Source of the DNA: Orobanche coerulescens
Lineage: Eukaryota; Streptophyta; Magnoliopsida; Lamiales; Orobanchaceae
Length of the DNA stretch: 64,000 nt
Direction: 5' to 3'
Assembly: GCA_033398695.1 (NCBI GenBank)
Contig: CM065814.1
Coordinates: 78,944,358-79,008,357, forward strand
Shown: piece by piece, positions 634 through 41,516 of the stretch
Position numbering within the stretch: the first letter of the stretch is position 1
Layout: every line of letters starts with the position of its first letter
Program-made: the position numbers and the translations under genes
Notes under the pieces: model-generated
The model's input: only the letters and a program-made list of their open reading frames with translations
Databases searched by the model: none
What the model was told of the DNA's origin: nothing

Positions 634-3243
634 TCAATTCCCATTTCGCAAAGACCATTTGGACTCCGCACAGTCCATCGAACCGTTAATATGTGTTTTA
701 AATTTTTGACCATTGGCCTTTAACAATCCGATTTTCAGTTTGGACACCCAATGTTCTTTGTGAAAAGATTTTAATAAAAACAACTTTCCGAAACACCCAT
801 TTTGCACATGACTTGGCACCTGTTTCACTTCCGGCTTATTCTCCTTTTTCACGAACGACCTTATGACAGCATTAGAATTTTTCGTTGGTGGATGAACGGT
901 TGATGACGACGACATGTCCAAATGCCTAAGATATGCGACTCGTTCTACATTTTTCTTAGACGTCGGAGCATATGGAATGGATTCTGAACACTTTGACCGA
1001 CAACTCTCCCGGTGTGCGTCTCTTGCAAAGATATTTACACTTTCAGTTTGTGAACTCTTTTCGACATTACTTGGACACGGATAGGGTTGAAACACTTGGA
1101 AAGTGACTTGCTCATCTTGAACCCGCAGAGTGAGTTTCCCTTTTTCCACATCAATGAGAGTTCGGCCGGTAGCTAAGAATGGTCTTCCCAAAATAATTGG
1201 GATGTCTTGGTCCTCCTCCATATCGAGCACAATGAAATCAGCCGGAAAGATGAATTTATCTACCTTGACTAAAACATCTTCTATTACCCCCCTCGGGTAC
1301 TTGATAGATCGGTCAGCTAATTGCAGCGAGATTGTCGTCGGCTTGGCTTCCCCAATGCCTAGCTTCTGAAATATGGAAAGGGGCATCAGATTAATGCTGG
1401 CCCCGAGATCACACAACGCTCTATCAAACGACAGATTTCCTATAGTGCACGATATATTAAAACTTCCTGGATCCTTCAATTTTGGCGGGTGCTTCTTCTG
1501 TAGAATAGCGCTGCACTCCTCCGTCAATGCCACTGTCTCATATTCCTCGAGCCTCCATTTGTTAGATAAGATCTCTTTCATGAACTTGACATAGCTCGGC
1601 ATTTGTTCCAAGGCATCAGCAAATGGAATATTTATATGTAGTTTCTTGAAAACGTCGAGAAACTTGGAAAATTGTTTGTCCACCTTTTTCTGTTGTAATC
1701 GCTGTGGAAACAGGACGGGTGGTACATATGCCTTCGGATTGTGAGGAAACAGTTTCGAGGGGATAGAATTCTGTGATTCCTCAGTAGCCAAACTTTTCTT
1801 CTCCTCACCCTCACTTCTCTTATTGTTCCTCTCGGGCTGGTCGCACAATTCCTTCCCGCTTCTCAAACTAATGGCATTAATACTCTATCTGGGGTTTGTC
1901 TCGGTCGTACTTGGCAAAGTACCCTCCGGGCGAGCTGTTAATACATTGGCAATTTGGCCCAATTGGACTTCCAAGTTGCGAATAGAAGCGGAATGGTTTT
2001 GCAAGGCCGCTTCCGTACGGGCCATGAACTGACTCGTATTTGCTGCCAATTTCGCCATTGCTTCATCTAGAGAGATTTTTGGAGCGGGAGGAGGTTGCTG
2101 TTGATGTTGAGCAAACTGAGGTTGGTTTAAGTTTTGTCCGTTCTTCCATGAAAAGTTAGGGTGATTACGCCACCCCGGATTATAAGTGTTGGAGTACGGA
2201 TTGTTTTGCCGATTCCCGTTCCCCACGAACTGAGCTTGTTCCATCGGAGGTTGCTCGAAAGGGTTTCCGACTGGGCATTCCGTGCTAGAATGAGATCCGT
2301 TGCACCAATTGCATGATTCAGTGGTAACGGGGGGAGGAACATGTGAAAAGGCTTGAAGTTGCTGAGTCAAGGCGGCGACTTGAGCTGATAATGTAGAGAT
2401 CGGATCGTTATTGGATATTTCCATAACTCGCTTCGGGTTTACTCATTCGGAAGGCCATTGATAAGCATTTGCAGCCATAGCTTCCAATAAAGAGTGTGCT
2501 TCGGCCATCATTTTTCCCATTAAGGCGCCCCCAACGGCTGCATCAACAAGAGTGCGTGTAGAAGCACTCAATCCGTTATAAAAGGTTTGGATTTGTAGCC
2601 AATCAGGTAAGCCATGGTGTGGGCATTTCCGTAATAAATCCTTGTATCGCTCCCAAGCTTCGTGGAGCGACTCCATATCAAATTGCCCAAAGGTGGTTAT
2701 CTCGTTCCTAAGACTCGCCATCTTTGATGGTGGGAAGAATTTAGCCAGAAAGGCTTGTGCTAATTCTACTCAAGTCGTGATAGAGCCCGGCGGTAAAGAA
2801 TTCAACCAAAATTTGACTTTGTCCCTCAAGGAGAAAGGGAAAATCCGTAGACGAATAGCATCATCGGTGACACCGTTGTTCTTGAAGGTGTCACAAATCT
2901 CGAGAAATGAAGCGATATGAGCGTTGGGGTCATCGTTTGCCAGTCCACAAAACTGGGTTGCTTGCACCATCTGAATAATAGCCGGCTTGATTTCGAAGTT
3001 GTTGGCTTGGATGGTTGGACGCCGGATTCCCGAAAAGTTCGCATTTATTTGAGGCATAGAATAATCGCGGAGTGTTAATGCCGGTTGAGCTTGCTGAATG
3101 GGGTTGTCTGCTTCGTGATTTCCCGTGTTATCGTCCATGATGACTATTGTCGGTAGCTCACGTTTCTCCTTCTTGCTTCTCCGAAGAGTGCGCTCGAGTT
3201 CAGTATCCAAAGGTAGTAAGCCTTCGTTACCGAATTTTCTCAT
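634..3243 (-). pseudogene. Element A gag-protease polyprotein, three in-frame stops
   Basis: One reading frame of about 870 codons runs from ATG at 3243 down to 634. It is broken only by stops at 2770-2772, 2443-2445 and 1885-1887; the pieces on either side are all in the same phase, so there is no frameshift. The N-terminus (MRKFGNEGLLPLDTELERTL) matches the basic start of Athila-type Gag. A retrotransposon gag domain follows, then a CCHC-like knuckle (CNWCNGSHSSTEC, near 2300). The aspartic protease has the CDLGASINLMPLS active-site loop and the ILGRPFLATGR segment near 1180-1420. Gag would form the particle and the protease would mature it. The stop at 2770 replaces a Trp that is present in L Gag (TGG to TGA), a G-to-A transition typical of methylcytosine decay. 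Confidence 0.88.
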
Positions 3244-3387: not shown

Positions 3388-4697
3388 TGTTGCGAAATTT
3401 CGGTGAACACAAGTGCACGTTATCATAGACAAGTAATAAAATGATTAGTAAGATATCGTTCCCACGAGGACTGACTTACCAACTACCGATTTATGCGTAT
3501 TCTAATTTTATTTGAACTATCGAAATTTGGGATGCAAGTAATAATTAAAGAAAACCAATAAAAGAATAACAGTAAAAACGATCGCTCGAAGAAAGAAAAT
3601 CAAATAAGAAATTAATCTAGGATTGTGAATCCACCTCGGTTTATCCGAATTTACTCTCGATTATCTGAAGTTAATGATTTCCCAATTTATTTAAGGCGAA
3701 GGTTGCTAAAGTACTCTACTGCCTCTCCCGAGGTCAGTAGATTTTTCTAAGGCGAATAATACACTCTATCCCTAGGTGAATCAATTCGACAATAGGCAAA
3801 AAGCATGGAATCTTCAGAAAGGCCACGTAGTTCCTATGAGTATATTCCTATCTCACAAGATAAAACGGTTCTCACCAATATTTCCTCACCAACTCTCCTC
3901 TCCCGATTCGAGTTGCGTGATTAAAACAATTCAATTATAGGCCACATAATTGAAAGCATTAAAAACAATTGGGAAAACTCAACAGAAAAGGGAATTATAT
4001 AGATAATCAAAAGTAAATTCGTCAAAACCTCGGTTTCATCAAAATCCTAGAACAGGGTTTTAGCCTGACATGCTAAAGAATAAAAATACAGAAGTAATCA
4101 AAGAAAGCATAAAGATCAAACGCAATCGAAGAGCTCGGATTCCTCCGTTCTCTAGCTCCCGCTCTCTGCTCCTTGGTGTTTTCTGCTTCTTTTTGCTTTC
4201 GCGATAATCTACTCCAATCGAATCCCCCTTTTCTCAGACCTTAAAACCTTATTTATAACTTTCATTAGCCTCCAAAATGCATCCGGAAATTGGTTCGAAA
4301 ACAGCTCCAAAAACGGCCCAGAACTGCGGCCAATTCTATCAAAACCGCCTCGTGGGCCGCGACTCACTTAATCTGTGCCGCGACCACTGACCTTCAGCGT
4401 ATACCTGGGCGAGCTAGATTTCCTCATGGGCCGCGGCTCAGTATCAACGTGCCGAGACCCCCGGTATAGTTGGTTCGGCACTTGCTGGTTGCCTTCATGT
4501 GCCGCGGCTCGCCTGGTTCGTGCCGCGGCCCCAGGCCAAAAATTTCCGTTTTCGCCCGTTTTTCATTGTTCGAGCTTCCAGACTCCAATTTCCTGCCAAA
4601 CATAAAATAATAGTGCATTAAAGGCTCATTTAGGCAGGTTTAGACACAAGATGGATAAAGAATAATGATAAATAAGCGTATAAAAATACGCCTAACA
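3388..4697 (-). repeat. Element A 5' LTR
   Basis: 1310 bases, bounded on the minus strand by TGTTAGG (4697) and CAACA (3388), directly next to the PBS. It contains several GCCGCGG(C/A) units at 4350-4535 related to the array at 158-421. No protein-coding signal; the short open frames at 4375-4618 are by-products of GC-rich repeats. The partner LTR is not in the window. Confidence 0.8.
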
Positions 4698-4702
4698 CTT
4701 GC

Positions 4703-5511
4703 CTACTACCCTTTGGTATTAAGGGCAATATTTGTCTGCAATCACCACCAAAGACAACGATAAATCCACCAAATGGCTTGTGATCTTTCATCATATACCT
4801 TATACTGTGATCCAGTGCCTCAAAGCAAAACTTATTATTCATGGGTGCCTCATCACATATGATTAGCTTTGTATTTTTCAAAAGTCTTGTCAGATCGCTA
4901 TTGGGGGTTATCCTACTACACATGGTAGTTTCATCGACCTGCAAAGAAATACTAAACCTAGAATGAGAAGCGCGGCCCCCAGGAATAAGTAGAGAAGCTA
5001 TGCCACTCGATGCAACCGAGAGAACAATATCACGCCTACCACGTAATGCAGAACACAGTGTCTTCCACAAAAATGTCTTTCCTGTGCGACCGTAACCATA
5101 TATAAAGAAAACTCCACCATTACCAGAATCGACTGCATCCATAATAGTATCATACACACTTCTTCGCTCATCCGTGAGACATGGATACAAGCGGCTGTGC
5201 AGCTCAATCATCTCATCAATATCATACGACATTTCTTCAGCAATCAAATTATTCATACCATTATCTGTGACTACATTGTCGGGAATGGGCATACCTTCAA
5301 TCTGAGTCAAGGTAAATCCATTCCTAGAAAGAAACTCTTCTATCTCGGCAAAAGTAAGATTCTTCAATTGTTCTTCATTTAGTTCCAGTCCTATATTGAA
5401 ATATTGTGATATAAAGTCAGCATAGCAAATAACAAATAAACGTTCATATAAAATTTTTGACATAAGAAATCTATTAAAATTTATACCAGGATTATTCAAC
5501 TTCCGTCGCAT
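4703..5511 (-). pseudogene. Helitron PIF1-type helicase, truncated
   Basis: This encodes the N-terminal part of a PIF1-family DNA helicase, the unwinding domain of Helitron transposase. Visible motifs are Walker A (GYGRTGKTFLW; the family usually has GYGGTGKT), an ASSGIASLLIPGGRASHSRF segment (motif Ia), Walker B (IICDEAPM) and FGGDCRQILP (motif III). The homologous frame stops where the LTR of element A begins at 4697; the last residues of the open frame (to 4630) are translated LTR. The C-terminal helicase motifs are absent, so the protein cannot work. It follows the Rep fragments on the same strand, as in intact Helitrons. Confidence 0.9.
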
Positions 5512-5553
5512 AAAATACTGGATGTCGTCCGATAGATACTCCTATGTACTTTC

Positions 5554-6294
5554 CTAAATATGAACGGGTCTGGACATACTGTTAGATTGTATAAGCATGG
5601 AGAACAAATGTCGAAGGAAACGACTAGAACCCCAAAAACTGGCTTCCTTTATAGCATGAATATACTCTTTGTCGTCATCGAGCAATCCCAAATAGTAACA
5701 TGCATCACGGTATGTAGGGTGAGCAACACCATCCACTGTCCGCAAATCCTCAAAGCAAGTGGCACCCCTAATGTGATTTAACATAATCCGCATGAAATAT
5801 AATGGACCAGTCTTAATTGGAACGTGGTAAATTCTTCCAACTTTGTTGTTGAAGTTCTTCCTATCTCTCCACACTTTACCTCTAGGATCCCACACGTAAT
5901 ATCTAGGGAACTCATCATATAGATACTTACGTGCTTTGGGATGATGCTTGCTGAATTCCATCCATTTAAGGAACTTTGTCTCTGCAACAGTATGCTTCTC
6001 CAATAAATCCGTAATCAAGTCACCATCTTTGAATGTGATGGACTGTTCACCCTCCATTTGAAATGGTAAACGCTCTACAAGTGGATCTCTGTAATGGATA
6101 TGATATCCCATAATATGCCACACAATCTCACATGCTGATATGTACCGACAGTCAACATAATCCTTCACCTCGTTCTCCACGGTTATTTTTGCGCTTATCC
6201 TATCAACCCCCTTGTTGACATACTTGAACAGACATTTTACAGAATTTATCTTATTGCACCATTCAACGTTGATGTGTGCCTGATACTTCATCAA
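5554..6294 (-). pseudogene. Helitron Rep, C-terminal part
   Basis: About 240 codons begin MKYQAHINVEWCNK and include KCLFKYVNKGVDR, which corresponds to the Rep tyrosine/lysine motif region of Helitron Rep (family motif YVNKG). It continues with VDCRYISACEIVWHIMGY and the LNHIRGATCFEDLRTVDG segment typical of the Rep-helicase linker. It ends in unrelated residues after about 5600, indicating a frameshift or lost splice site. It lies between the HUH fragment and the helicase. This would be part of the rolling-circle nicking domain; it is non-functional here. Confidence 0.85.
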
Positions 6295-6429
6295 TAGGAA
6301 AGGATTGTACGAAATAATAAACTTATAAATGAATAGTAAAACTTCTTATTATTTTTGAATATAAATGACAATTAAATTTATATCACGGTGAATGTAATAG
6401 AATGTGACAATACACATTAAAAAAATGAT

Positions 6430-6798
6430 TTTAAATTGTACCTGTTATCAATGAGATTGCCATTCTTTTCGACAATGGCACCAGTGTCACGCCTTATGTA
6501 CACCAGGTAGCCATTTCCATCGAAGATAGTACGCTCATTAAAAGACTTTAGAAATTTCTTAGAACATTTCTTGCCATCATGCATGAAAGGTGAAGTCGGA
6601 TTCAATGGTCCGCATGGACCATGCACCATATGCTCAGAGACAGCCTTGTACAACTCCGGATTGAGTTCCTTATCCGGTAGCTCAGCACTGATGAAATCAT
6701 CTATAGAATTTGCAGACATATTTCTATCTGCTCGATCAATCCACAACAATATATATGCATGAGGAAGTCCCTTTTTTGAAATTCAATAGTGTACACAA
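6430..6798 (-). pseudogene. Helitron Rep HUH-motif exon, degenerate
   Basis: After a probable 3' splice site (minus TTTGTAG at about 6799-6805) the frame reads YTIEFQKKGLPHAYILLW, then the DRNMSANSIDDFISAELPDKE and MVHGPCGPLNPTSPFM segments known from Helitron Rep. The HUH motif, normally His-Ala-His in GLPHAHILLW, reads His-Ala-Tyr, so the metal-binding site of the endonuclease is damaged. The exon ends near NGNLIDNR at about 6430, followed by AT-rich, intron-like sequence to 6300. Confidence 0.85.
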
Positions 6799-6884
6799 CT
6801 ACAAAGTAAATAGAATAAAAATCAATCAATTTGGAGTGAAGTTAATAATGAACCGATCAATTGAAATAATAAAGGAACTGAGAT

Positions 6885-7588
6885 TTATAATGTGGCAGCT
6901 CCAATTGCCTTGCCAAAAACATTTTCTATCTTCAAGTCTTTTATAAGTTGGTCCAACTTCATCTTGAAAATGCAACTTATAACATGAGGCATATCCTCTG
7001 GTCGTAAACCCTTGGACTTAACAAAACATGCAATCTCAGGCCATTTGGTATTGCACGTGAATGTGATGAATAGTTACGGATATCCTATACTCTTGCATAT
7101 GGTCATAGTGTCGTGGAAGTTTTGGACCATATATCTAGGACCTCCGACGAAAGAAGATGGCAATACAAAGCGTTTACCAATGTTTTTTGTTGGGTCAACT
7201 GGATCAATATCACCTGTTGAATAGCATCATCAAGTGACTTATACTTATCAGATCTCAATAACGGTTGGTTCCTCATTATAAAAGCAGGCCTCTGCGCTTC
7301 CATCATCATGTAGCCATCTATTATAAACTGCTGGAATAACTTTCTACTGAGTAATATTGTATGAGCCTCATCAATACGGTCAAAAATTCTAAAAGCCAAA
7401 AACTCCTTAATTGTAAGTGTGTGCCTAACACCTTTGGACTTATCAGAGTGAGAAATCTCCGTATGGTGTCCATCCTCACCATATGGGAAAAATAGGGGAT
7501 ACTGCATTGGAAGGTAACTTGGATGCAATTCGAAAATTCTTTGCAAATCACCATTTTTTTGTTCCAATACAATATCGCGGGGATCCAT
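6885..7588 (-). pseudogene. Helitron-like N-terminal domain, frameshifted
   Basis: The frame starts MDPRDIVLEQKNGDLQRI, includes HPSYLPMQYPLFFPYGEDG, and runs to about 7225. Coding similarity then moves to another frame (KRFVLPSSFVGGPRYMVQNF, about 7110-7190), passes a stop near 7077 (GYP*LFITFTCNTKWPEI) and fades near 6885. This is the Helitron_like_N domain upstream of the HUH region. AT-rich sequence between 6799 and 6885 looks like an intron. One frameshift and one stop make it inactive. Confidence 0.85.
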
Positions 7589-32491: not shown

Positions 32492-32660
32492 CAACGTTAT
32501 GCGGATGGATTTCACTGCACCACTCTGAGGGAATATGACGATGTAGTCACAGCATACGCCAGTACGATTGTCAGTTCGGATACCGGGTTTAACCAAAAGA
32601 AGCAGAAGACATCTAATCAGTCCGGGAGCACCAGTAGAATGAACTCGGGAATTGGGTTCT
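32492..32660 (+). pseudogene. Element H gag, second part
   Basis: H gag resumes in frame after B: YADGFHCTTLREYDDVVTAY, then NQKKQKTSNQSGS. It is cut at 32660 by element L; GTTCT (32656-32660) recurs at 40943-40947, where the zinc-knuckle part follows. This fragment is only ~55 codons. Confidence 0.88.
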
Positions 32661-34297
32661 TGATAAGTGTCAGTTTTATACACTTATCCATGATTTGTAT
32701 CGATAAATTTCACCCATAATTGAGCTAGTCTACTCGTTTTTTGCTTTTAATTAATTAGTTTTTTAAAATTTTATTTTTATCGGATAAAGATGTAAATCTA
32801 GTCTTAATCGGATTGAATTACTGATTTACTCAAGAAATAACATGTTTATAAAATATTCTCTTTGTTGAATTTTTATGTATTCATGTTGTAGGGCTTTCCG
32901 AGACGAGTTCGGCAGTCTTTCCGGATTCAAAATCTGAGTTATATATCAAAAGTTATCATCTGAAGAAGATTTGGGGCTAAAACGCAAAGTCAGAAATTTC
33001 TAGGCTGAAAATGAAGTCTGAAACTCCATACGGGCGTAACATCATAACATACGGGCGTAACTCACAAATGCAGAAAAATGTAGCCATGTTACGGCCGTAA
33101 CTACTCAATGTTACGGTCGTAAGTCATCCAAGTTACGGCCGTAACTCCTCAATGTTACGGCCGTAACTCTTGGCAGATTTTTGATCATTGTATAATTTTT
33201 TATACTTTTGGTCTATTATTGAGGGGATGGCTGGCATTGATCCGATCTATTGTAATAATGCTGGAATTTTGGAGCTATTAGATGACTTTAGGTGTATAAA
33301 TAGACCCCTTAGATCCATCATCATTCATCATTCATCTTATAATTTTCCATTTTTTTTGTAAACTTTTCTTTTTGTGTGAAGAACACACTTGTGTTCTTGA
33401 GTGATCTTTGTAGTGTGGTATAACATATGTTGTTCAGAGAGTTTATTGTTTCTATCTCCTTTATCTACTAAGGGAGTTAGGATCAATTCTTTCTCTTGAT
33501 TCAACTAATAATGACCACACAAGCTTGTAATATGTGTAATAAACCCTTCATGGGCTAAGTAATCTTTAGTTGGGATTATAAACAAGGTCAGTCATGTTAT
33601 TTATGTTTGTATAAAGATCTATTGTGAATTACTTATTATTGTGTGTGATTTTCATTGTTTTAACAATCTTTATTTATTTGGCCAATAAATGACGATATTT
33701 ATGGTCTTCATATGTTTCGAAAGAAAATATGTTTGATTAGATCAAAGGATCTTCACTCTAAGTTATTCTAGGGGATAGAAATATACCTCTAGTCCTTAGA
33801 TGATTCTTTGAGTTATTTTCATAAATCCTAATGCTATGTATTGAAGCCAATCAACATAGAAATATAGTGGATTGATTCAATATGTAAGGGGCGTTTTATA
33901 GTTCGAAAGAGAAACCGTCTTTTTAAGGAAAATCGAATCTACACAACATAATAAGTAAAATTCATCTTATGATCTCCTATACATCTTTTATAACTAATGA
34001 CGAACTAAGTTTGTAATCCCAACTATTTCATTTTATCGTTAATCAATCTATTATTATTGCTATCTTATTATTTCCTTATAATATTAAAACTAATATTGCA
34101 TTTTCTTTGCAATTATTAAACCAAACTTTTTAATTGTGTGTTTCACTTATCTTTGTATCTATAAAAATAGACTAATAGTGTATAATTCAAATTATAACAA
34201 AACTTCCTTTTGGGATCGATAAACCGGACTCAAAAAGTCCACTTTACTACTTGATACGATATCGTGCACTTGCGATAGTTACACTAAAAGCGTGTCA
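32661..34297 (+). repeat. Element L 5' LTR
   Basis: Contains the GTTACGGCCGTAAC palindrome array (33028-33167). A TATAAATAGACCCCTTAG segment near 33294 is a good candidate for the LTR promoter TATA box, about 1 kb before the LTR end. No genes inside. Confidence 0.95.
33028..33167. repeat. GTTACGGCCGTAAC palindrome array in L LTR
   Basis: Perfect 14-base palindromes lie at 33088-33101, 33132-33145 and 33154-33167. One changed copy is at 33110-33123 and two shorter relatives (ATACGGGCGTAAC) are near 33029 and 33050. The 22-base period between the last four units is exact. In the 3' LTR (about 39682-39826) most copies are altered. Confidence 0.88.
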
Positions 34298-34303
34298 AGT
34301 TTT

Positions 34304-34321
34304 TGGCACCGTTGCCGGGGA
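34304..34321 (+). other. Element L primer-binding site (tRNA-Asp type)
   Basis: TGGCACCGTTGCCGGGGA, six bases after the LTR end, near-complementary to the tRNA-Asp 3' end and the same type as in element A. Confidence 0.88.
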
Positions 34322-34403
34322 AGTATAAGAGTTATTTTGAAGTATTACATTATTAACTATTGTTATAAATACAACTTTTTCTTTGTTGTTACTTCTCTTG
34401 TCT

Positions 34404-36017
34404 ATGCGAAGGACGTATAATCGCGATTTAGTTTCACTAGATCCCGAAATTGAAGCCACATTTAGAAGAAGGCGAAGAGAACAAAAAACAAGCCGTATTT
34501 CTTCACCATCAATGGCGGACGAAGCAAACCCACCGCTTCTCCAAGAAAATGATAACGAAATAATTCCTCCGGTAGGGGGAATACCCAATGCTCAAAACAT
34601 GCAACATCAACAACATCCTATTGTGCCGGAAATAGATGAAGACAACATGCTCTTTGGGGAATTCATGAACCCCCCATCTTTGAGCGTGCAATCAAGTGTG
34701 ATCTATCCACCATTTGGAGTGGATAATTTTCAAATTCGCCCCGATGTCATCAATCTCTTCTCCAACAACAACTCATTCTATGGAAGAACCGATGAGAATC
34801 CATATCTCCATATTAACCGTTTTGTGGAGATTTGTGGAAATTTCAAATATCCAAATGTAAATGACGAGGCGATAAAAATGAGACTTTTCGTGCACACTTT
34901 GAAGGACAGAGCAAGAGAGTGGCTAGATACTTTGCCACCACGAAGCATAACAAATTGGCCTGAATTTGTTCAAAAATTCACCACTAAATACTTTCCACCA
35001 ATAAAAGTGGCGAAACTCAAATACGAAATCTCTACATTTTGTCAACAAGATTCGGAGTCATTTCACGAAGCATGGGAGAGATACAAAGATATGCTACGAA
35101 AATGTCCTAACCATGGTTTCAATTTGGGAGCACAAGTCAATTACTTCTATTCTGGACTCTTACCTACATGCCGAGCCAATGTCGATTCATCATCAAATGG
35201 TTCACTTGGAAACAAAATTATGAGAGAGGCTTATAATCTTTTTGAGGTTATAAGTGAACAAAGTGCAAGATGTCCAGACAGAAATATCCAAAAAAAACCA
35301 AATGGCGTTTTTGAAGTGGATTCTTATTCACTTATGTTGGCAAAAATTGAAGCTTTATCAAAGAAAGTCGAGGACATGTATTTTTCAACTCCTCAATCTG
35401 TGAAGACAGTGCAAACTCCACAAGTTTCAACTCTTTCATGTGAAATTTGTGGAGCAACTCACAACAGCACTATGTGTCCCTTAGCGCAACAGGAGCAGTC
35501 ATTCCCACCACCAGAACAAGTGACCTATGCTCAGAATTTCCAAAGGCAAGCATACAATCCTTACGGGCCAACATACAATACAGGGTACAAAAATCATCCA
35601 AATTTTTCTTATGCAAACAACAACAATGTGTTGAATCCAACGCATCAAGAAAAGAAGCCCGGATGGGAAGAAGCAATCACAAAGCTAGCTGAACAACAAC
35701 TGAAGTATCAACAACGAAATGATGCTTCAATTAAAAATCTGGAGACACAAGTTGGCCAAATGGCCAAAATACTTTCAGAAAGATCTCATGGCATGTTACC
35801 TAGCAATACCGAGGTAAATCCAAGGGAAAATGTACAAGCTATCACAACAAGAAGTGGAGTGCAGTTGCCCGAAATTTCTATGGAAAACCATCTGGAAAAA
35901 CAAAAAATTAAACAAAATCAGAATCAGAAAACGAATCTGATACAGGACCTTCATCTCAAAAAGGTTCAATTGCTACAAAATCTTATGTTCCACCTATCCC
36001 ATTTCCTCAACGGTTGA
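34404..36017 (+). CDS. Element L Gag
   Basis: Uninterrupted 537-codon frame. The start is ATG 34404 (MRRTYNRDLVSLDPEIEATF), the typical Athila-type Gag opening; the open frame extends upstream only through non-ATG codons. The retrotransposon gag domain lies at about residues 125-290 (LHINRFVEICGNFK, REWLDTLPPRSITNWPEF, SFHEAWERYKDMLRKCPNHG). A CCHC-like knuckle (CEICGATHNSTMC) follows near residue 350. The C-terminus has NLETQVGQMAKILSE and PSNTEVNPRENVQAITTRSG. The protease lies in another phase, with the two frames overlapping at 35912-36017. Gag forms the particle; an intact Gag fits a young element able to package its own RNA. Confidence 0.9.
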   Translation: MRRTYNRDLVSLDPEIEATFRRRRREQKTSRISSPSMADEANPPLLQENDNEIIPPVGGIPNAQNMQHQQHPIVPEIDEDNMLFGEFMNPPSLSVQSSVIYPPFGVDNFQIRPDVINLFSNNNSFYGRTDENPYLHINRFVEICGNFKYPNVNDEAIKMRLFVHTLKDRAREWLDTLPPRSITNWPEFVQKFTTKYFPPIKVAKLKYEISTFCQQDSESFHEAWERYKDMLRKCPNHGFNLGAQVNYFYSGLLPTCRANVDSSSNGSLGNKIMREAYNLFEVISEQSARCPDRNIQKKPNGVFEVDSYSLMLAKIEALSKKVEDMYFSTPQSVKTVQTPQVSTLSCEICGATHNSTMCPLAQQEQSFPPPEQVTYAQNFQRQAYNPYGPTYNTGYKNHPNFSYANNNNVLNPTHQEKKPGWEEAITKLAEQQLKYQQRNDASIKNLETQVGQMAKILSERSHGMLPSNTEVNPRENVQAITTRSGVQLPEISMENHLEKQKIKQNQNQKTNLIQDLHLKKVQLLQNLMFHLSHFLNG

Positions 36018-36691
36018 AGAATCACAAGCTCGATGCTCAATTCGGGAAATTCTTGGAAATCTTCAAAAAGCTACACATCAACATTCCTTTTGCCGATGCT
36101 CTAGCACAAATGCCAAGCTATGCCAAATTTATGAAAGATATTCTTTCCAACAAACGAAGGCTTGAAGAATACGAAACTGTCATGCTAACAGAGGAATGTA
36201 GCGCAATACTACAAAAGAAGTTACCACCCAAGCTAAAAGATCCGGGAACTTTCACAATCCCGTGTACAATTGGTGAAGTGAATTTTGGCAAAGCTCTTTG
36301 TGATTTAGGGGCAAGTATCAACTTGATGCCCCTGTCAATTTTCAACAAATTGAACTTGGGAGAAGCAAAAGCAACAACAGTTTCACTACAATTAGCCGAT
36401 CGGTCAATCAAATATCCACATGGGATAGTTGAAGATGTGCTCGTCAAAGTTGATAAATTCATATTTCCAGCAGATTTTATCATCCTCGACATGGAAGAAG
36501 ATCAGGATATTCCCATTATTTTGGGACGACCATTTCTCGCAACCGGACGTGTTCTTATTGACGTCTATGAAGGAAAGCTAATTCTCAGAGTGGAAGACGA
36601 ACATGTCATCTTCGATGTCCTAAAAACTTTGAATCATCCCTCCACAGATGATTACTATCTAAAAATTGATGCAATTGATGCCAGAATATGA
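35912..36691 (+). CDS. Element L aspartic protease region (frame -1 to gag)
   Basis: The frame is open from 35912 to the stop at 36691. It continues the Gag homology in the -1 phase (SYVPPIPFPQRL, FGKFLEIFKKLHINIPFADAL) and then carries the protease: KALCDLGASINLMPLSIF with the D-L-G loop usual for this group, PADFIILDMEEDQDI, and ILGRPFLATGRVLIDV. In element A the same regions lie in one frame, so the phase change here is most simply a small indel in the A-rich stretch 35897-35930. No good slippery heptamer was seen in the overlap. The frame ends with no sign of RT beyond. Confidence 0.85.
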   Translation, partial: TKSESENESDTGPSSQKGSIATKSYVPPIPFPQRLKNHKLDAQFGKFLEIFKKLHINIPFADALAQMPSYAKFMKDILSNKRRLEEYETVMLTEECSAILQKKLPPKLKDPGTFTIPCTIGEVNFGKALCDLGASINLMPLSIFNKLNLGEAKATTVSLQLADRSIKYPHGIVEDVLVKVDKFIFPADFIILDMEEDQDIPIILGRPFLATGRVLIDVYEGKLILRVEDEHVIFDVLKTLNHPSTDDYYLKIDAIDARI

Positions 36692-36998
36692 ACAACGTCT
36701 TGGGAATCTGACGTTAAAAGACCCAGTTTGCCAATTTATAAGAAAATTGGATGGGAAGCTTCTCCCCAACTCTTAGAAGGTGTTTAAGCCGTTTCTGAAC
36801 GTAAAATCAGAGGAAGATGTGAGCCACAATCACAACTACTGTACATACACGTAAGTATCTTTTATTTTTGTCGTAAGGTGAGATTTTCTGAATAAAAAAT
36901 GTGATACGCGATAAATGCTTTCATTATTCTATTGAGTAGTTGAAGCGCAATCAACGCAATCATAAACTTGTTAAACAATTTTTACCTTCTTTTTCTTC
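36692..36998 (+). other. Spacer between protease and LOG
   Basis: About 300 bases with no coding signal. It contains a splice-donor-like ACGTAAGTAT at about 36849-36858, which could serve splicing of a LOG message from the LTR promoter. That role is inference only. Confidence 0.5.
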
Positions 36999-37007
36999 TA
37001 TAAATAA
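36999..37007 (+). promoter_or_regulatory. TATA-like box upstream of LOG
   Basis: TATAAATAA lies 87 bases before the LOG ATG and is followed by a pyrimidine-rich, ATG-free leader (TTCTTTCATTCATCCCTC, CTCTGTTTCTCTC), the pattern of a plant core promoter with 5' UTR. A transcription start around 37030-37040 would fit. This suggests LOG was captured with its own leader or has gained a promoter; it is not proof of activity. Confidence 0.55.
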
Positions 37008-37085
37008 ACATTGTTCTTGTTTCTTTCATTCATCCCTCAAACTTGCACTTTTCTCTGTTTCTCTCTAAATAATTGCTTTTCAAAA

Positions 37086-37712
37086 ATGGAGTCATCATCT
37101 TCCACAAAAAAATTTAACACAGTCTGCATTTTTGGTGGAGCTAGTTCTGGAAAAGAGGCATGCTTTCAAGCGACCCACAACTTGGGTCGTACCTTAGGAG
37201 AAAAATGCATTCATGTAGTTTATGGAGGAGGAAGTCTAGGATTAATGGGACGAGCTGCTGCTTCTGCCTATATGGAAGGAGTAAGAGTGTTGGGAATAAT
37301 CCCAAAACCTCTGGCTGAAAGTAAAATCACCGGGTCAACTATTGGAGATGAGTTTAGATCTGTAAATATGCAAGATAGCATAACTCAAATGATAAATAAT
37401 TCTGGTGCCTTTATCACCCTTCCCGGTGGTTTTGGCACCCTTGAGGAACTTTTTCATGTGGTTACCAGAGCCCAGCTAAATGTTCATCAAAAACCAATAG
37501 GTGTGCTTAATGTCAATGGTTTCTTTGATGGTTTACTGTCTTTCATCGACTACTCTGCTGAAAAGGGCTTTATTTCCGAGCGTGCAAAACGAATCATAGT
37601 CGTTGCAACAACACCAGAAGAACTAATCAAAAAACTCAATGAGTTTGTTCCTCAACCAGATCCAGCTCTAGCTAAAATTGTCTGGGTAGAAGATTTTACC
37701 GTGACAAAATGA
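37086..37712 (+). CDS. LOG: LOG-family cytokinin riboside 5'-monophosphate phosphoribohydrolase
   Basis: An intact, intronless 208-codon gene from ATG 37086 (MESSSSTKKF); the length equals that of plant LOG proteins (about 200-220). LOG enzymes hydrolyse cytokinin riboside monophosphates to free active cytokinin plus ribose 5-phosphate in the cytosol or nucleus. Visible motifs: FGGASSGK (16-23), VYGGGSLGLMG (45-55), PGGFGTLEE (113-121, containing catalytic Glu121), then RAQLNVHQKPIGVLNVNGFF and LLSFIDYSAEKGFI. Positions 98-99, Arg-Lys in active LOGs, are Ser-Ile here, so the canonical activity may be lost or altered. Host LOG genes have several introns, so capture through RNA is likely (inference). 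It sits inside LTR element L, after protease and in the same direction. Confidence 0.93.
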   Translation: MESSSSTKKFNTVCIFGGASSGKEACFQATHNLGRTLGEKCIHVVYGGGSLGLMGRAAASAYMEGVRVLGIIPKPLAESKITGSTIGDEFRSVNMQDSITQMINNSGAFITLPGGFGTLEELFHVVTRAQLNVHQKPIGVLNVNGFFDGLLSFIDYSAEKGFISERAKRIIVVATTPEELIKKLNEFVPQPDPALAKIVWVEDFTVTK

Positions 37713-38203
37713 AAAGTGGATTCATTCCTCTCCCTTTGATAACCCATGTCGGACCTCTTGTATTTTTACTTTCTGTCGTGTGTAATAATCGTGCTAAATG
37801 ATGGCAGCTTAAGGAGTTTCTTCTTGATCTCTTGACGCGCATCTATTCGCGATTTATGTATTGTTATTTTATTACTGTAATGTTTATTGTGTTTTTTTTA
37901 TAAAAACTTTGATGGCAGCGTAAGGCGACTCTTCGGACTTTCTTGATGCGCATCTTAAAAATTGTGTTATACTTACGAGTATATTTTATTTTATTTTCTT
38001 TCGTTGTGTGCCTCGTATATTTATTCTCTTGCAGATTCTAAAAGGCGTTAGCTCAGACATCAACTTTCTTAACAGGGAGTATTCTGCTTTTCTGCATTGA
38101 TTTTTATTTTTTTTATTTTTAAACTGAGGACAGTTTTATTTTCAAGTTTGGGGGTGGTTTGTTTAATTATTTTAGTGTGTTTTGATTGATTTGGTTATTT
38201 GGC

Positions 38204-38234
<31 letters not shown>

Positions 38235-38550
38235 GTATTTTGATTTTTGAGATTTCTAGATCTGGCCAAAACACCAATAAAATAGCTATATACAAGTTTC
38301 TAAAAATCGTTTTAACCGGTTAAAAAATTGTATATTCCAAAATTTTTGAGCCTTAATCTCTCTTTCCAAGCCTTGTAATTATCATATAAAATCGAGTCAT
38401 TCGTTACCTTGAGAAAAGAAGAATCAATTGGTTGATGAAAAATAAAACTGAAATTTACTTAATTTGTGGAGTTTTTGATTTTTCATGCTTAACTAAATGA
38501 TTTTCTGCAAAAATTCTATTCCCTAAAAAAAAGGAGTCATTGGTGAAAAG

Positions 38551-38840
38551 AGCTACACGTTAGCAAATAACGGTGTGAAAGCTATCACCTAAAAAATAAA
38601 TGATGAAAAGGAGAAGTGTTGAGCAAAGAATAATGCCTAATTTTGGAAGTCTTAAATTTTGCGAAAAATAAAGGACTAACCATTGTTGGTGCGTAACTGC
38701 CGTCTCAGAAAAATTGGTGAAAAGAGCTACACGTTAGCAAATAACGGTGTGAAAGCTATCACCTTTTTACGAAAAAAATAATGAGATAGAAATTGTGTTA
38801 GTGAAAAGAGCTACTCGTTAGCAAATAACGGTGTGAAGCT
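38551..38840 (+). repeat. Three hairpin repeats in element L
   Basis: Near-identical units of about 45 bases are centred on hairpins at 38551-38583, 38725-38757 and 38809-38840. Each can pair AGCT/AGCT, ACAC/GTGT and GTTA/TAAC around a small GCAAA loop. Each is preceded by GTGAAAAG and followed by ATCAC. In the third copy ACAC reads ACTC, weakening the stem. Confidence 0.75.
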
Positions 38841-39305
38841 ATCACTGAAAGGGATGTAGTTTATGAGCAGATTTGAATTAATTAGCAGTCGAATTTCAAT
38901 ACACTCAATTTTGTGAAAATCACAATATTTGATGACGCCAATAAAATTCTTCTTCATATTGAGTCGAAAAATAAACGAGTGATCGAGAGCAACCATTGAA
39001 GGGAGTCGTGTGTATCACGAGTGGGAAAGTAATAATCAGCCTTTTGGGGGGAAAACCTTGCATTTTGGAATTATAAAATAAAAACCGTGTTTTAACTTCA
39101 AAATCATTTGTAGATTTATTTTGAATCTTGATTCATTTATATCTACTGTATAAGCTGGTTGTTGTGTATTAATGGCATTTTGATCTCCTTTTCTCTTTTT
39201 ATATTTTAATTTTTGTGTGTATTATTAGTTTTGTGTCTTATTTTTATTTTTATTTTTATTTGGAGTGTGATTAATAAAGAGTCTTGCTCGGGACTAGCAA
39301 GAATT

Positions 39306-39319
39306 CAAGTTTGAGGGTG
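39306..39319 (+). promoter_or_regulatory. Element L polypurine tract
   Basis: CAAGTTTGAGGGTG directly precedes the 3' LTR start (TGATAAG at 39320), the position of the plus-strand primer in Athila-type elements. Confidence 0.7.
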
Positions 39320-40942
39320 TGATAAGTGTCAGTTTTATACACTTATCCATGATTTGTATCGATAAATTTCACCCATAATTGAGCTAGTCTACTCGTTTTT
39401 TGCTTTTAATTAATTAGTTTTTTAAAATTTTATTTTTATCGGATAAAGATGTAAATCTAGTCTTAATCGGATTGAATTACTGATTTACTCAAGAAATAAC
39501 ATGTTTATAAAATATTCTCTTTGTTGAATTTTTATGTATTCATGTTGTAGGGCTTTCCGAGACGAGTTCGGCGGTCTTCGATTCAAAATCTGAGTTATAT
39601 ATCAAAAGTTATCATCTCAAGAAGATTCGGGCTAAAACGCAAAAGTCAAAAATTTCTCAATGAAAATAAAGTCCAAACTCCATACGGGCGTAACATGATA
39701 ACATACGGGCGTAACTCACAAATGCGTAAAACGTAGCCATGTTACGGCCAGAACTACTCAATGTTACTAGTAAGTCATCCAAGTTACGGCCATAACTCCT
39801 CAATGTTACAGTAGTAACTCTTGTGATTTTTGATCATTGTATAATTTTTATACTTTTGGTCTATTATTGAGGGGATGGGCATTGATCCGATCTATTGTAA
39901 TAATCTTTGGAATTTTGGAGCTATTAGATGACTTTAGGTGTATAAATAGACCCTTAGATCCATCATCATTCATCATTCATCTTATAATTTTCCATTTTTT
40001 TTGTAAACTTTTCTTTTTGTGTGAAGAACACACTTGTGTTCTTGAGTGATCTTTGTAGTGTGGTATAACATATGGTGTTCAGAGAGTTTATTGTTTCTAT
40101 CTCCTTTATCTACTAAGGGAGTTAGGATCAATTCTTTCTCTTGATTCAACTAATAATGACCACACAAGCTTGTAATATGTGTAATAAACCCTTCATGGGC
40201 TAAGTAATCTTTAGTTGGGATTATAAACAAGGTCAGTCATGTTATTTATGTTTGTATAAAGATCTATTGTGAATTACTTATTATTGTGTGTGATTTTCAT
40301 TGTTTTAACAATCTTTATTTATTTGGCCAATAAATGACGATATTTATGGTCTTCATATGTTTTGAAAGAAAATATGTTTGATTAGATCAAATGATCTTCA
40401 CTCTAAGTTATTCTAGGGGATAGAAATATACCTCTAGTCCTTAGATGATTCTTTGAGTTATTTTCATAAATCCTAATGCTATGTATTGAAGCCAATCAAC
40501 ATAGAAATATAGTGGATTGATTCAATATGTAAGGGGCGTTTTATAGTTCGAAAGAGAAACCGTCTTTTTAAGGAAAATCGAATCTACACAACATAATAAG
40601 TAAAATTCATCTTATGATCTCCTATACATCTTTTATAACTAATGACGAACTAAGTTTGTAATCCCAACTATTTCATTTTATCGTTAATCAATCTATTATT
40701 ATTGCTATCTTGTTATTTCCTTATAATATTAAAACTAATATTGCATTTTCTTTGCAATTATTAAACCAAACTTTTTAATTGTGTGTTTCACTTATCTTTG
40801 TATCTATAAAAATAGACTAATAGTGTATAATTCAAATTATAACAAAACTTCCTTGTGGGATCGATAAACCGGACTCAAAAAGTCCACTTTACTACTTGAT
40901 ACGATATCGTGCACTTGCGATAGTTACACTAAAAGCGTGTCA
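39320..40942 (+). repeat. Element L 3' LTR
   Basis: 1623 bases matching 32661-34297. Outside 39565-39900 only a handful of single changes are seen. Inside that patch nearly every CAG, CTG and CCGG/GGCC site of the 5' LTR is altered or deleted. The LTR ends at GCGTGTCA before GTTCT. Confidence 0.95.
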
Positions 40943-41516
40943 GTTCTCCTCTAAATCAGCAGCTTCGTTCCAACAGAAAGGGGCATCTGATGGGTCCCCT
41001 CGTCGGAACTGTTTCAATTGTGGCATAGCGGGGCATACCATGAGTCAGTGTCGTAAGGCGGCTACAAAGTGTTTTTCATGCGGAAGGGGTGGGCACATGT
41101 CTCGCTACTGTTCACGGGTCAATCCTACACCAAATTCAGCTCCTCAGAGTCAGCAAGGCTCGGTACAGACGTCCAGAGCATCCGCCATGTCCGATTATCG
41201 ATCTCCACCTTACCAAACTCCTCCATACAGTGCGGGAAGAGGACGTGGGTGCGGGGCAGGCACTGCACCCTCCTTGGGAACACTGCTATCCCACGTATTC
41301 GAACTGAGAGCTACTGATGACGGGACTACACCTGCTGTCTCACGTACACTTCTTATTAAATCCCGGCCTATTCATGTACTGTTTGATACTGGAGCGACCC
41401 ACTCGTTTATATCCGTGGAATGTGTTAACCGTTTGAATATTCCTTGTGTACCTTGTGAATCTTTTACTGTTAAGCTACCCGGGGGCAGCAGGGTGGGGGG
41501 TAATTTGGAAGTTTGA
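40943..41516 (+). pseudogene. Element H gag C-terminus and protease
   Basis: H gag resumes in frame after L (SSKSAASFQQKGASDG). Two zinc knuckles follow: CFNCGIAGHTMSQC and CFSCGRGGHMSRYC. After a linker the protease begins, with an intact active-site loop LFDTGATHSFIS and FTVKLPGG. A stop at 41514-41516 ends the frame. Of the four gypsy proteases here (C, E, G, H) this is the only one with the normal D-T-G triad. Confidence 0.9.

Follow-up and report, generated by a model that had tools for sequence, protein, structure and literature searches.

A high-copy, non-autonomous retrotransposon family carrying a LOG gene and a partner gene, NABP, in Orobanche coerulescens

Why should a long terminal repeat (LTR) retrotransposon without replication enzymes of its own carry a gene for a plant hormone enzyme? 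This question is raised by a 64,000-nucleotide stretch of Orobanche coerulescens DNA (contig CM065814.1, positions 78,944,358 to 79,008,357 of the forward strand; hereafter referred to as the window), in which an LTR element at 32661-40942 contains an open frame for the cytokinin-activating enzyme LOG. The window element belongs to a high-copy, non-autonomous LTR retrotransposon family. Among the LOG copies sampled, the commoner form has neither gag nor pol and retains LOG together with a second gene, hereafter referred to as NABP, whereas in the window copy gag and protease (gag-pro) accompany LOG, and of NABP only the 3' end is left. The features of the window copy, by window position, are as follows.

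32656..32660, no strand: left copy of the 5-bp target-site duplication GTTCT (read in the sequence)
32661..34297, + strand: 5' LTR, 1637 bp (LTR-LTR alignment)
34304..34320, + strand: primer-binding-site-like sequence TGGCACCGTTGCCGGGG (read in the sequence)
34404..36017, + strand: gag open frame, 537 aa (list of open reading frames (ORFs), Pfam)
36014..36691, + strand: retroelement aspartic protease frame (ORF list, Pfam)
36673..36776, + strand: 3' remnant of the NABP gene, the last ~34 codons, with TAG at 36774-36776 (blastn, in-frame translation)
37086..37712, + strand: LOG (cytokinin riboside 5'-monophosphate phosphoribohydrolase) frame, 208 aa, intronless (ORF list, Pfam)
37713..39319, + strand: 3' non-coding spacer, with a purine-rich stretch at 39306-39319 before the 3' LTR (read in the sequence)
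39320..40942, + strand: 3' LTR, 1623 bp (LTR-LTR alignment)
40943..40947, no strand: right copy of the 5-bp target-site duplication GTTCT (read in the sequence)

A preliminary description made from the sequence alone had listed GTTCT duplications, paired LTRs, a primer-binding site (PBS), gag, protease and a purine tract, all of which were seen at 32661-40942; with its TG..CA ends, the element shows the full set of features by which LTR retrotransposons are recognized. The same description correctly placed LOG where pol would be, in a gag-protease-LOG layout, and held that reverse transcriptase (RT) and integrase were absent: no frame for either was present among the ORFs listed inside 32661-40942, and the element therefore does not qualify as autonomous. 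The definitions of LARD and TR-GAG elements (no coding capacity, or gag only) do not apply to the family, given the presence of NABP and LOG frames. The gag frame scored 74.1 bits against Pfam Retrotrans_gag and the protease frame 27.0 bits against Asp_protease_2 (cut-off 24.3). The PBS-like sequence is presumably of the tRNA-Asp type, which we take to be that of the Athila lineage. Joining the flanks in silico without the element restored one open frame of 267 codons spanning the insertion site, indicating that the element inserted cleanly into the coding frame of another element.

Searches of the 3.65-Gb genome showed this copy to be one of many. A 59-mer from the LOG active site had 4386 matches at ≤3 mismatches and the LTR/PBS junction pattern 3640 at ≤2 mismatches, with no matches to either reversed control. 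A LOG DNA search returned 3153 candidates, 40 of which were scored: the window and 39 others, at 97% identity. Nineteen of these 39 places, chosen as the best DNA matches to the window, were fetched with their flanks. LTR pieces flanked LOG on both sides in 16 of these 19 copies; NABP was present in 16, gag-pro in two with a window-like layout (L016 and L022), and neither in one (L017), which also had no 5' LTR match. The target-site duplications of the 11 copies with both ends read were all different, as in independent insertions, nine being exact 5-mers and two agreeing at four of five positions. A second sample was taken in chromosome order, as 2.5-kb stretches at the first 20 exact LTR/PBS matches along C1. 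It comprised 13 copies with NABP and LOG but no gag (LOG being partial in some), one copy with neither, and six with gag-pro, for which these stretches are too short to show LOG or RT. A junction pattern of the window type had 2763 matches, a count in which the two types are inseparable, since at 3 mismatches the pattern accepts NABP-type copies as well; places with the exact window-type junction numbered at least about 100 among the matches listed.

These counts, and the recurrence of the layout in relatives, dispose of the possibility, raised in the preliminary description, that the element is single-copy or that LOG is absent from its relatives. An assembly join can be dismissed likewise, as L016 and L022 show the order gag-pro-LOG too and the other scored LOG places are so similar. 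The gag-protease-LOG form is thus real, but the earlier picture was incomplete, the commoner sampled form lacking gag and protease too and carrying a second gene. As regards the arrangement of copies, exact junction matches are spaced ~2.2 kb apart at C4:150101732-150108395 and clustered at C7:150198240-150236936 and C3:104613267-104663624, a pattern that we read as the element having been amplified locally, either in tandem or segmentally. In L024, two element copies in tandem appear to have one LTR in common.

What is the second gene? In gag-less copies, NABP is a 180-codon gene between the PBS and LOG. It passed the Pfam cut-offs for Viral_NABP (PF05515; 24.2 bits, cut-off 23) and Carla_C4 (PF01623; 23.9 bits, cut-off 20.9) by small margins, and all eight relatives tested passed Carla_C4, six of them also passing Viral_NABP. 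It resembles these nucleic-acid-binding proteins of carlaviruses and related viruses over its basic and CxxC..C part, but differs from them in being encoded in a chromosomal LTR element and in having conserved N and C parts outside the best-matched stretches. At E ≤ 10, 228 relatives were found; the 120 listed include proteins from O. minor, O. gracilis, O. hederae, Xanthoceras, Acer and Populus x canadensis, and 114 of them contain the CxxC..C finger (regular expression). Comparison with solved structures yielded no match for NABP, a profile search gave three weak and unconvincing ones (E 0.36-0.57), and an AlphaFold model (pLDDT 64, pTM 0.29) was too weak for fold comparison. Scans of IMG/VR with LOG, the protease, NABP and a NABP alignment found no relative for any of the four queries. 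With the full NABP gene of L009 as the blastn query, bases 443-543 were matched in the window-layout copies L016 and L022, and the window itself retains 19% of the gene, between protease and LOG. In most of 31 copies, the reading frame continues beyond the NABP stop codon (TAG) into a conserved stretch of ~25 residues, KAFRPFLNVKSEEDVSHNHNYCTYA (window 36777-36851), and the protein P0194 has a similar stretch, the stop being replaced there by a sense codon. This could reflect readthrough of the stop codon or an RNA signal that is conserved.

RT-bearing relatives with the same gag-pro exist. Among 40 gag-pro places scored, 16, including the window, reached query base 1491, as expected from the window layout, 20 ended 8 short of it, at base 1483, and four ended elsewhere. 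In one of the 20 (L052), the 3' part of gag and the protease were 97% identical to those of the window over 1482 bases, and gag-pro continued in frame into RT, with one stop, as judged by eye. Another of the 20 is followed by the stretch L053, in which there is a frame with Transposase_32 pieces of 26.7 and 41.6 bits, each below the cut-off of 45, followed by the 3' spacer of the window (window bases 38211-38565) at 94% identity. LOG could not be placed in the helper itself: L053, the sole helper 3' end read, had no NABP or LOG match. From these alignments, an RT-bearing Athila-like relative is likely to be the helper of the family. We favour, with moderate confidence, the explanation that this is a non-autonomous family living off Athila-type (Ty3/gypsy) elements with which it shares gag-protease and the 3' spacer, its cargo being a NABP-LOG cassette.

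The window LOG frame (Pfam Lysine_decarbox, 115.6 bits; best solved relative 2a33, At2g37210) had been described as intact. It is indeed open, but it has AGC (Ser) at the codon for the Arg of MQDR in relatives, lacks one codon near residue 28, and stops early at a TGA, most fetched copies continuing ~10 residues further. The LOG of the window copy is probably inactive, because its catalytic Arg is replaced by Ser. As judged from sequence, the family does bear the marks of plant LOG enzymes, PGGxGTxxE and the Arg of MHxRK, the latter being present in the family but not in the window copy. In an alignment restricted to listed matches of 195-230 aa, a set in which annotation favours open frames, 59 of the 67 cluster representatives from Orobanche and 112 of the 121 others had the catalytic Arg, and PGGxGT and the two Glu were kept in 87-100% per site among the listed relatives. 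The Lys following the Arg in MHxRK was kept in none of the 67 Orobanche and four of the 121 other representatives. Of the 19 fetched LOG copies, 10 were open to the natural end, three shared the early stop of the window and six had an internal stop or frameshift.

Such decay would be expected if LOG and NABP had been captured by chance and amplified without benefit, the open frames reflecting the youth of the copies. The copies are young: LTR divergence (K) was 0.0066 in the window (7 differences in 1064 sites outside LTR bases ~250-610), which would correspond to an insertion about 0.25 million years ago at a rate of 1.3e-8, and 0.0085-0.021 in the 12 further copies for which both LTR segments are complete. 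The broken fetched copies, the 11 of 13 LOG copies broken in the chromosome-order sample and the loss of the catalytic Arg from the window LOG also fit passive hitch-hiking. We nevertheless consider it unlikely, as the cassette survived the loss of gag and pol, LOG catalytic residues are kept, full-length NABP and LOG relatives occur in other plants at about 50-70% identity, the LOG tree tracks plant groups, and shared amino-acid changes are in deficit.

This deficit was estimated column by column, with singletons taken as post-insertion decay and variants shared by ≥3 copies as mostly those of source lineages; NABP rows with <30% coverage (window, L016 and L022) were excluded. The ratio of nonsynonymous (including stop) to synonymous variants (N:S) was 95:26 for singletons and 18:15 for shared variants in NABP (29 rows, p 0.008). 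For LOG (33 rows, 20 of which were the window and close matches picked by similarity to it), the corresponding values were 67:31 and 18:17 (p 0.10), or 39:16 and 11:13 (p 0.044) without C>T and G>A. The neutral N:S expected from the singleton spectrum was 3.8 for NABP and 3.3 for LOG. Shared variants show less amino-acid change than singletons, clearly so for NABP, whereas the result for LOG is borderline and would also fit hitch-hiking. The stronger signal for NABP, and the near-complete loss of the Lys of MHxRK, would also fit a view in which selection acts on NABP, for a role in RNA binding, in packaging or in the suppression of silencing, with LOG being tolerated or serving only as a nucleotide hydrolase in the particle. 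We think this rather improbable, given the retention of the Arg and of the PGGxGTxxE residues of LOG in most listed relatives.

Several points weigh against a helper-dependent family with useful cargo. RT was observed in a single copy (L052) and the 3' end of the helper in a single further stretch (L053), and that helper and family share LTR and PBS is a presumption. The LOG variant test is borderline, LOG singletons, at an N:S of 2.16, already lie below the neutral value, making the contrast weak, and the Fisher tests assume independent variants. Only two of the 13 LOG copies in the chromosome-order sample cover the complete frame, free of stops, at ≥95%. Finally, among the 120 of 228 NABP matches listed, there was no protein named as from Rehmannia, Paulownia or Reevesia, and the LOGs of these plants and of Populus, seen as proteins, may or may not lie in elements.

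Is the cassette confined to O. coerulescens? The proteins closest to the window LOG were from O. hederae and O. minor, the five best being 83-85% identical. Among the 11 NABP proteins listed under an Orobanche name, two have a LOG at the adjacent locus tag (O. minor 020768/020769 and 009435/009434); one O. hederae protein was a fusion of NABP to LOG, and one O. minor protein a fusion of protease to NABP. A Xanthoceras protein (P0067) has two LOG domains with, between them, a stretch resembling, by eye, the gag-protease linker. Among contigs of ≥1500 bases, four of 26 LOG contigs were equal in size to a NABP contig, as against a mean of 0.475 in shifted controls, none of 400 of which reached four; the pairing is deduced from equal size. 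With the contigs of <1500 bases, dropped as too short for both genes, the figures were nine of 52 and a shift mean of 2.0. The NABP and LOG of the equal-size pairs of 2425 and 4511 bases occupied matching places in the trees, with Orobanche and with Populus, whereas tree placement was poorly supported for the pairs of 2128 and 8723 bases. In the LOG tree, the LOG proteins related to that of the window were separate from Arabidopsis LOG3 and LOG8 (support 0.98), the only two canonical plant LOGs included, and branched in the order Paulownia, then Rehmannia with Orobanche; Rehmannieae are placed inside Orobanchaceae by taxonomy. An Arabidopsis LOG3 query of 101 residues gave 150 scored places in the genome, all at 50-60% identity, which we take to be element copies; host LOG genes were not found with this query.

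The number of copies, in the thousands, and the Orobanche LOG clusters, which represent 244 and 328 member proteins, could suggest that LOG copies serve the plant, as an intronless, element-borne expansion domesticated for parasitic or tissue-specific cytokinin. This seems very unlikely, many LOG copies being broken and relatives being found in non-parasites (Populus, Xanthoceras and Acer for NABP; Populus, Xanthoceras and Reevesia for LOG), although no search was aimed at a fixed host copy.

If the family does depend on Athila-type helpers, Athila proteins would package its RNA and reverse-transcribe it, recognizing packaging and priming signals common to both. NABP might protect or carry this RNA, or dampen silencing, and LOG would release cytokinin in its active form in cells that transcribe the element, which might favour the proliferation of cells holding new copies; the preliminary description had supposed that more cells might in this way pass copies on to the germ line. 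Selection would act on source copies, most inserted copies decaying afterwards, as has begun in the window LOG. A carlavirus zinc-finger protein reportedly functions in plants as a transcription factor that induces cells to proliferate; if so, NABP and LOG could push in the same direction. Taken together, the data suggest that the family retains its passenger genes as an aid to its spread. More tentatively, and with rather less conviction than doubt, we propose a "retro-satellite" lineage across eudicots, with thousands of copies in broomrapes, that would persist without replication proteins by means of a conserved two-gene toolkit, a plant-virus-type NABP and a cytokinin-releasing enzyme, altering host silencing and division in favour of copying by Athila helpers.

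How does this family compare with known elements? Capture of genes, or loss of pol, in elements that retain their LTRs is familiar from maize Bs1, LARD and TR-GAG elements; unlike the window family, Bs1 is present in low copy and holds gene fragments, LARD have no coding capacity and TR-GAG retain gag. Steinbauerova, in 2011, is said to have noted two Athila-like elements similar to LOGL4. That work is cited for a LOG-type domain in elements in section 12 of PMC9289625, which itself reports a YgdH (LONELY GUY) domain in Ty3/gypsy consensus elements of Citrus sinensis and C. clementina and, in unfiltered data, Populus trichocarpa. The preliminary description held that an intact captured hormone gene in a gag-only element may be undescribed; LOG domains in Ty3/gypsy elements, at least, are not. 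The Citrus and Populus elements likewise hold a LOG domain inside Ty3/gypsy elements, but that screen was keyed on RT, so that RT-less elements like that of the window would be missed, and that section mentions no NABP partner (PMC9289625). The same article describes an ALKBH-type demethylase in Ty3/gypsy elements of Phalaenopsis, similarly an additional enzyme domain that an LTR family has retained, although the enzyme is different and the elements were detected through RT (PMC9289625). With the Athila lineage of Ty3/gypsy, the window family appears to share its gag and protease type, along with extra frames, which are reported for most OTA elements (PMC6317226), but it lacks RT, RNase H and integrase and has NABP and LOG where pol and a 3' frame would be. 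A term search of a review on extra ORFs of LTR elements in plants (PMC7264820) found no word beginning LOG, cytokinin or Citrus. Among the listings and passages covered on LOG, carlavirus-type genes and plant retrotransposons, mostly from openly accessible papers, neither the NABP-LOG pair nor the gag-less form was found, and the viral-type partner gene and the gag-less form may be new relative to published elements.

Some further features of the window were observed. Global alignment of its 5' and 3' LTRs gave 1593 matches, 28 mismatches and 18 gap positions, the differences being concentrated in a ~360-bp segment (LTR bases ~250-610; 32900-33260 versus 39559-39900) that holds 22-bp repeats around TTACGGCCGTAA; this might stem from template switching or local conversion, or from poor base calling. 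A second Athila-like gag-protease lies at 634-3243 on the minus strand, its protease (634-1866) being 74% and its gag 36% identical to those of the element. Broken frames resembling, by eye, a Helitron helicase occupy 4630-7588 on the minus strand and run on into the stretch L028.

For genome annotation, element copies of this kind raise the apparent number of LOG genes in broomrapes, and they escape screens that depend on RT. If the proposal is correct, a mobile element would survive by manipulating its host, rather than through enzymes of its own, and an RNA-virus gene family would be linked to a chromosomal retroelement. The effect of element-borne hormone genes on germ-line or meristem spread would thereby become testable.

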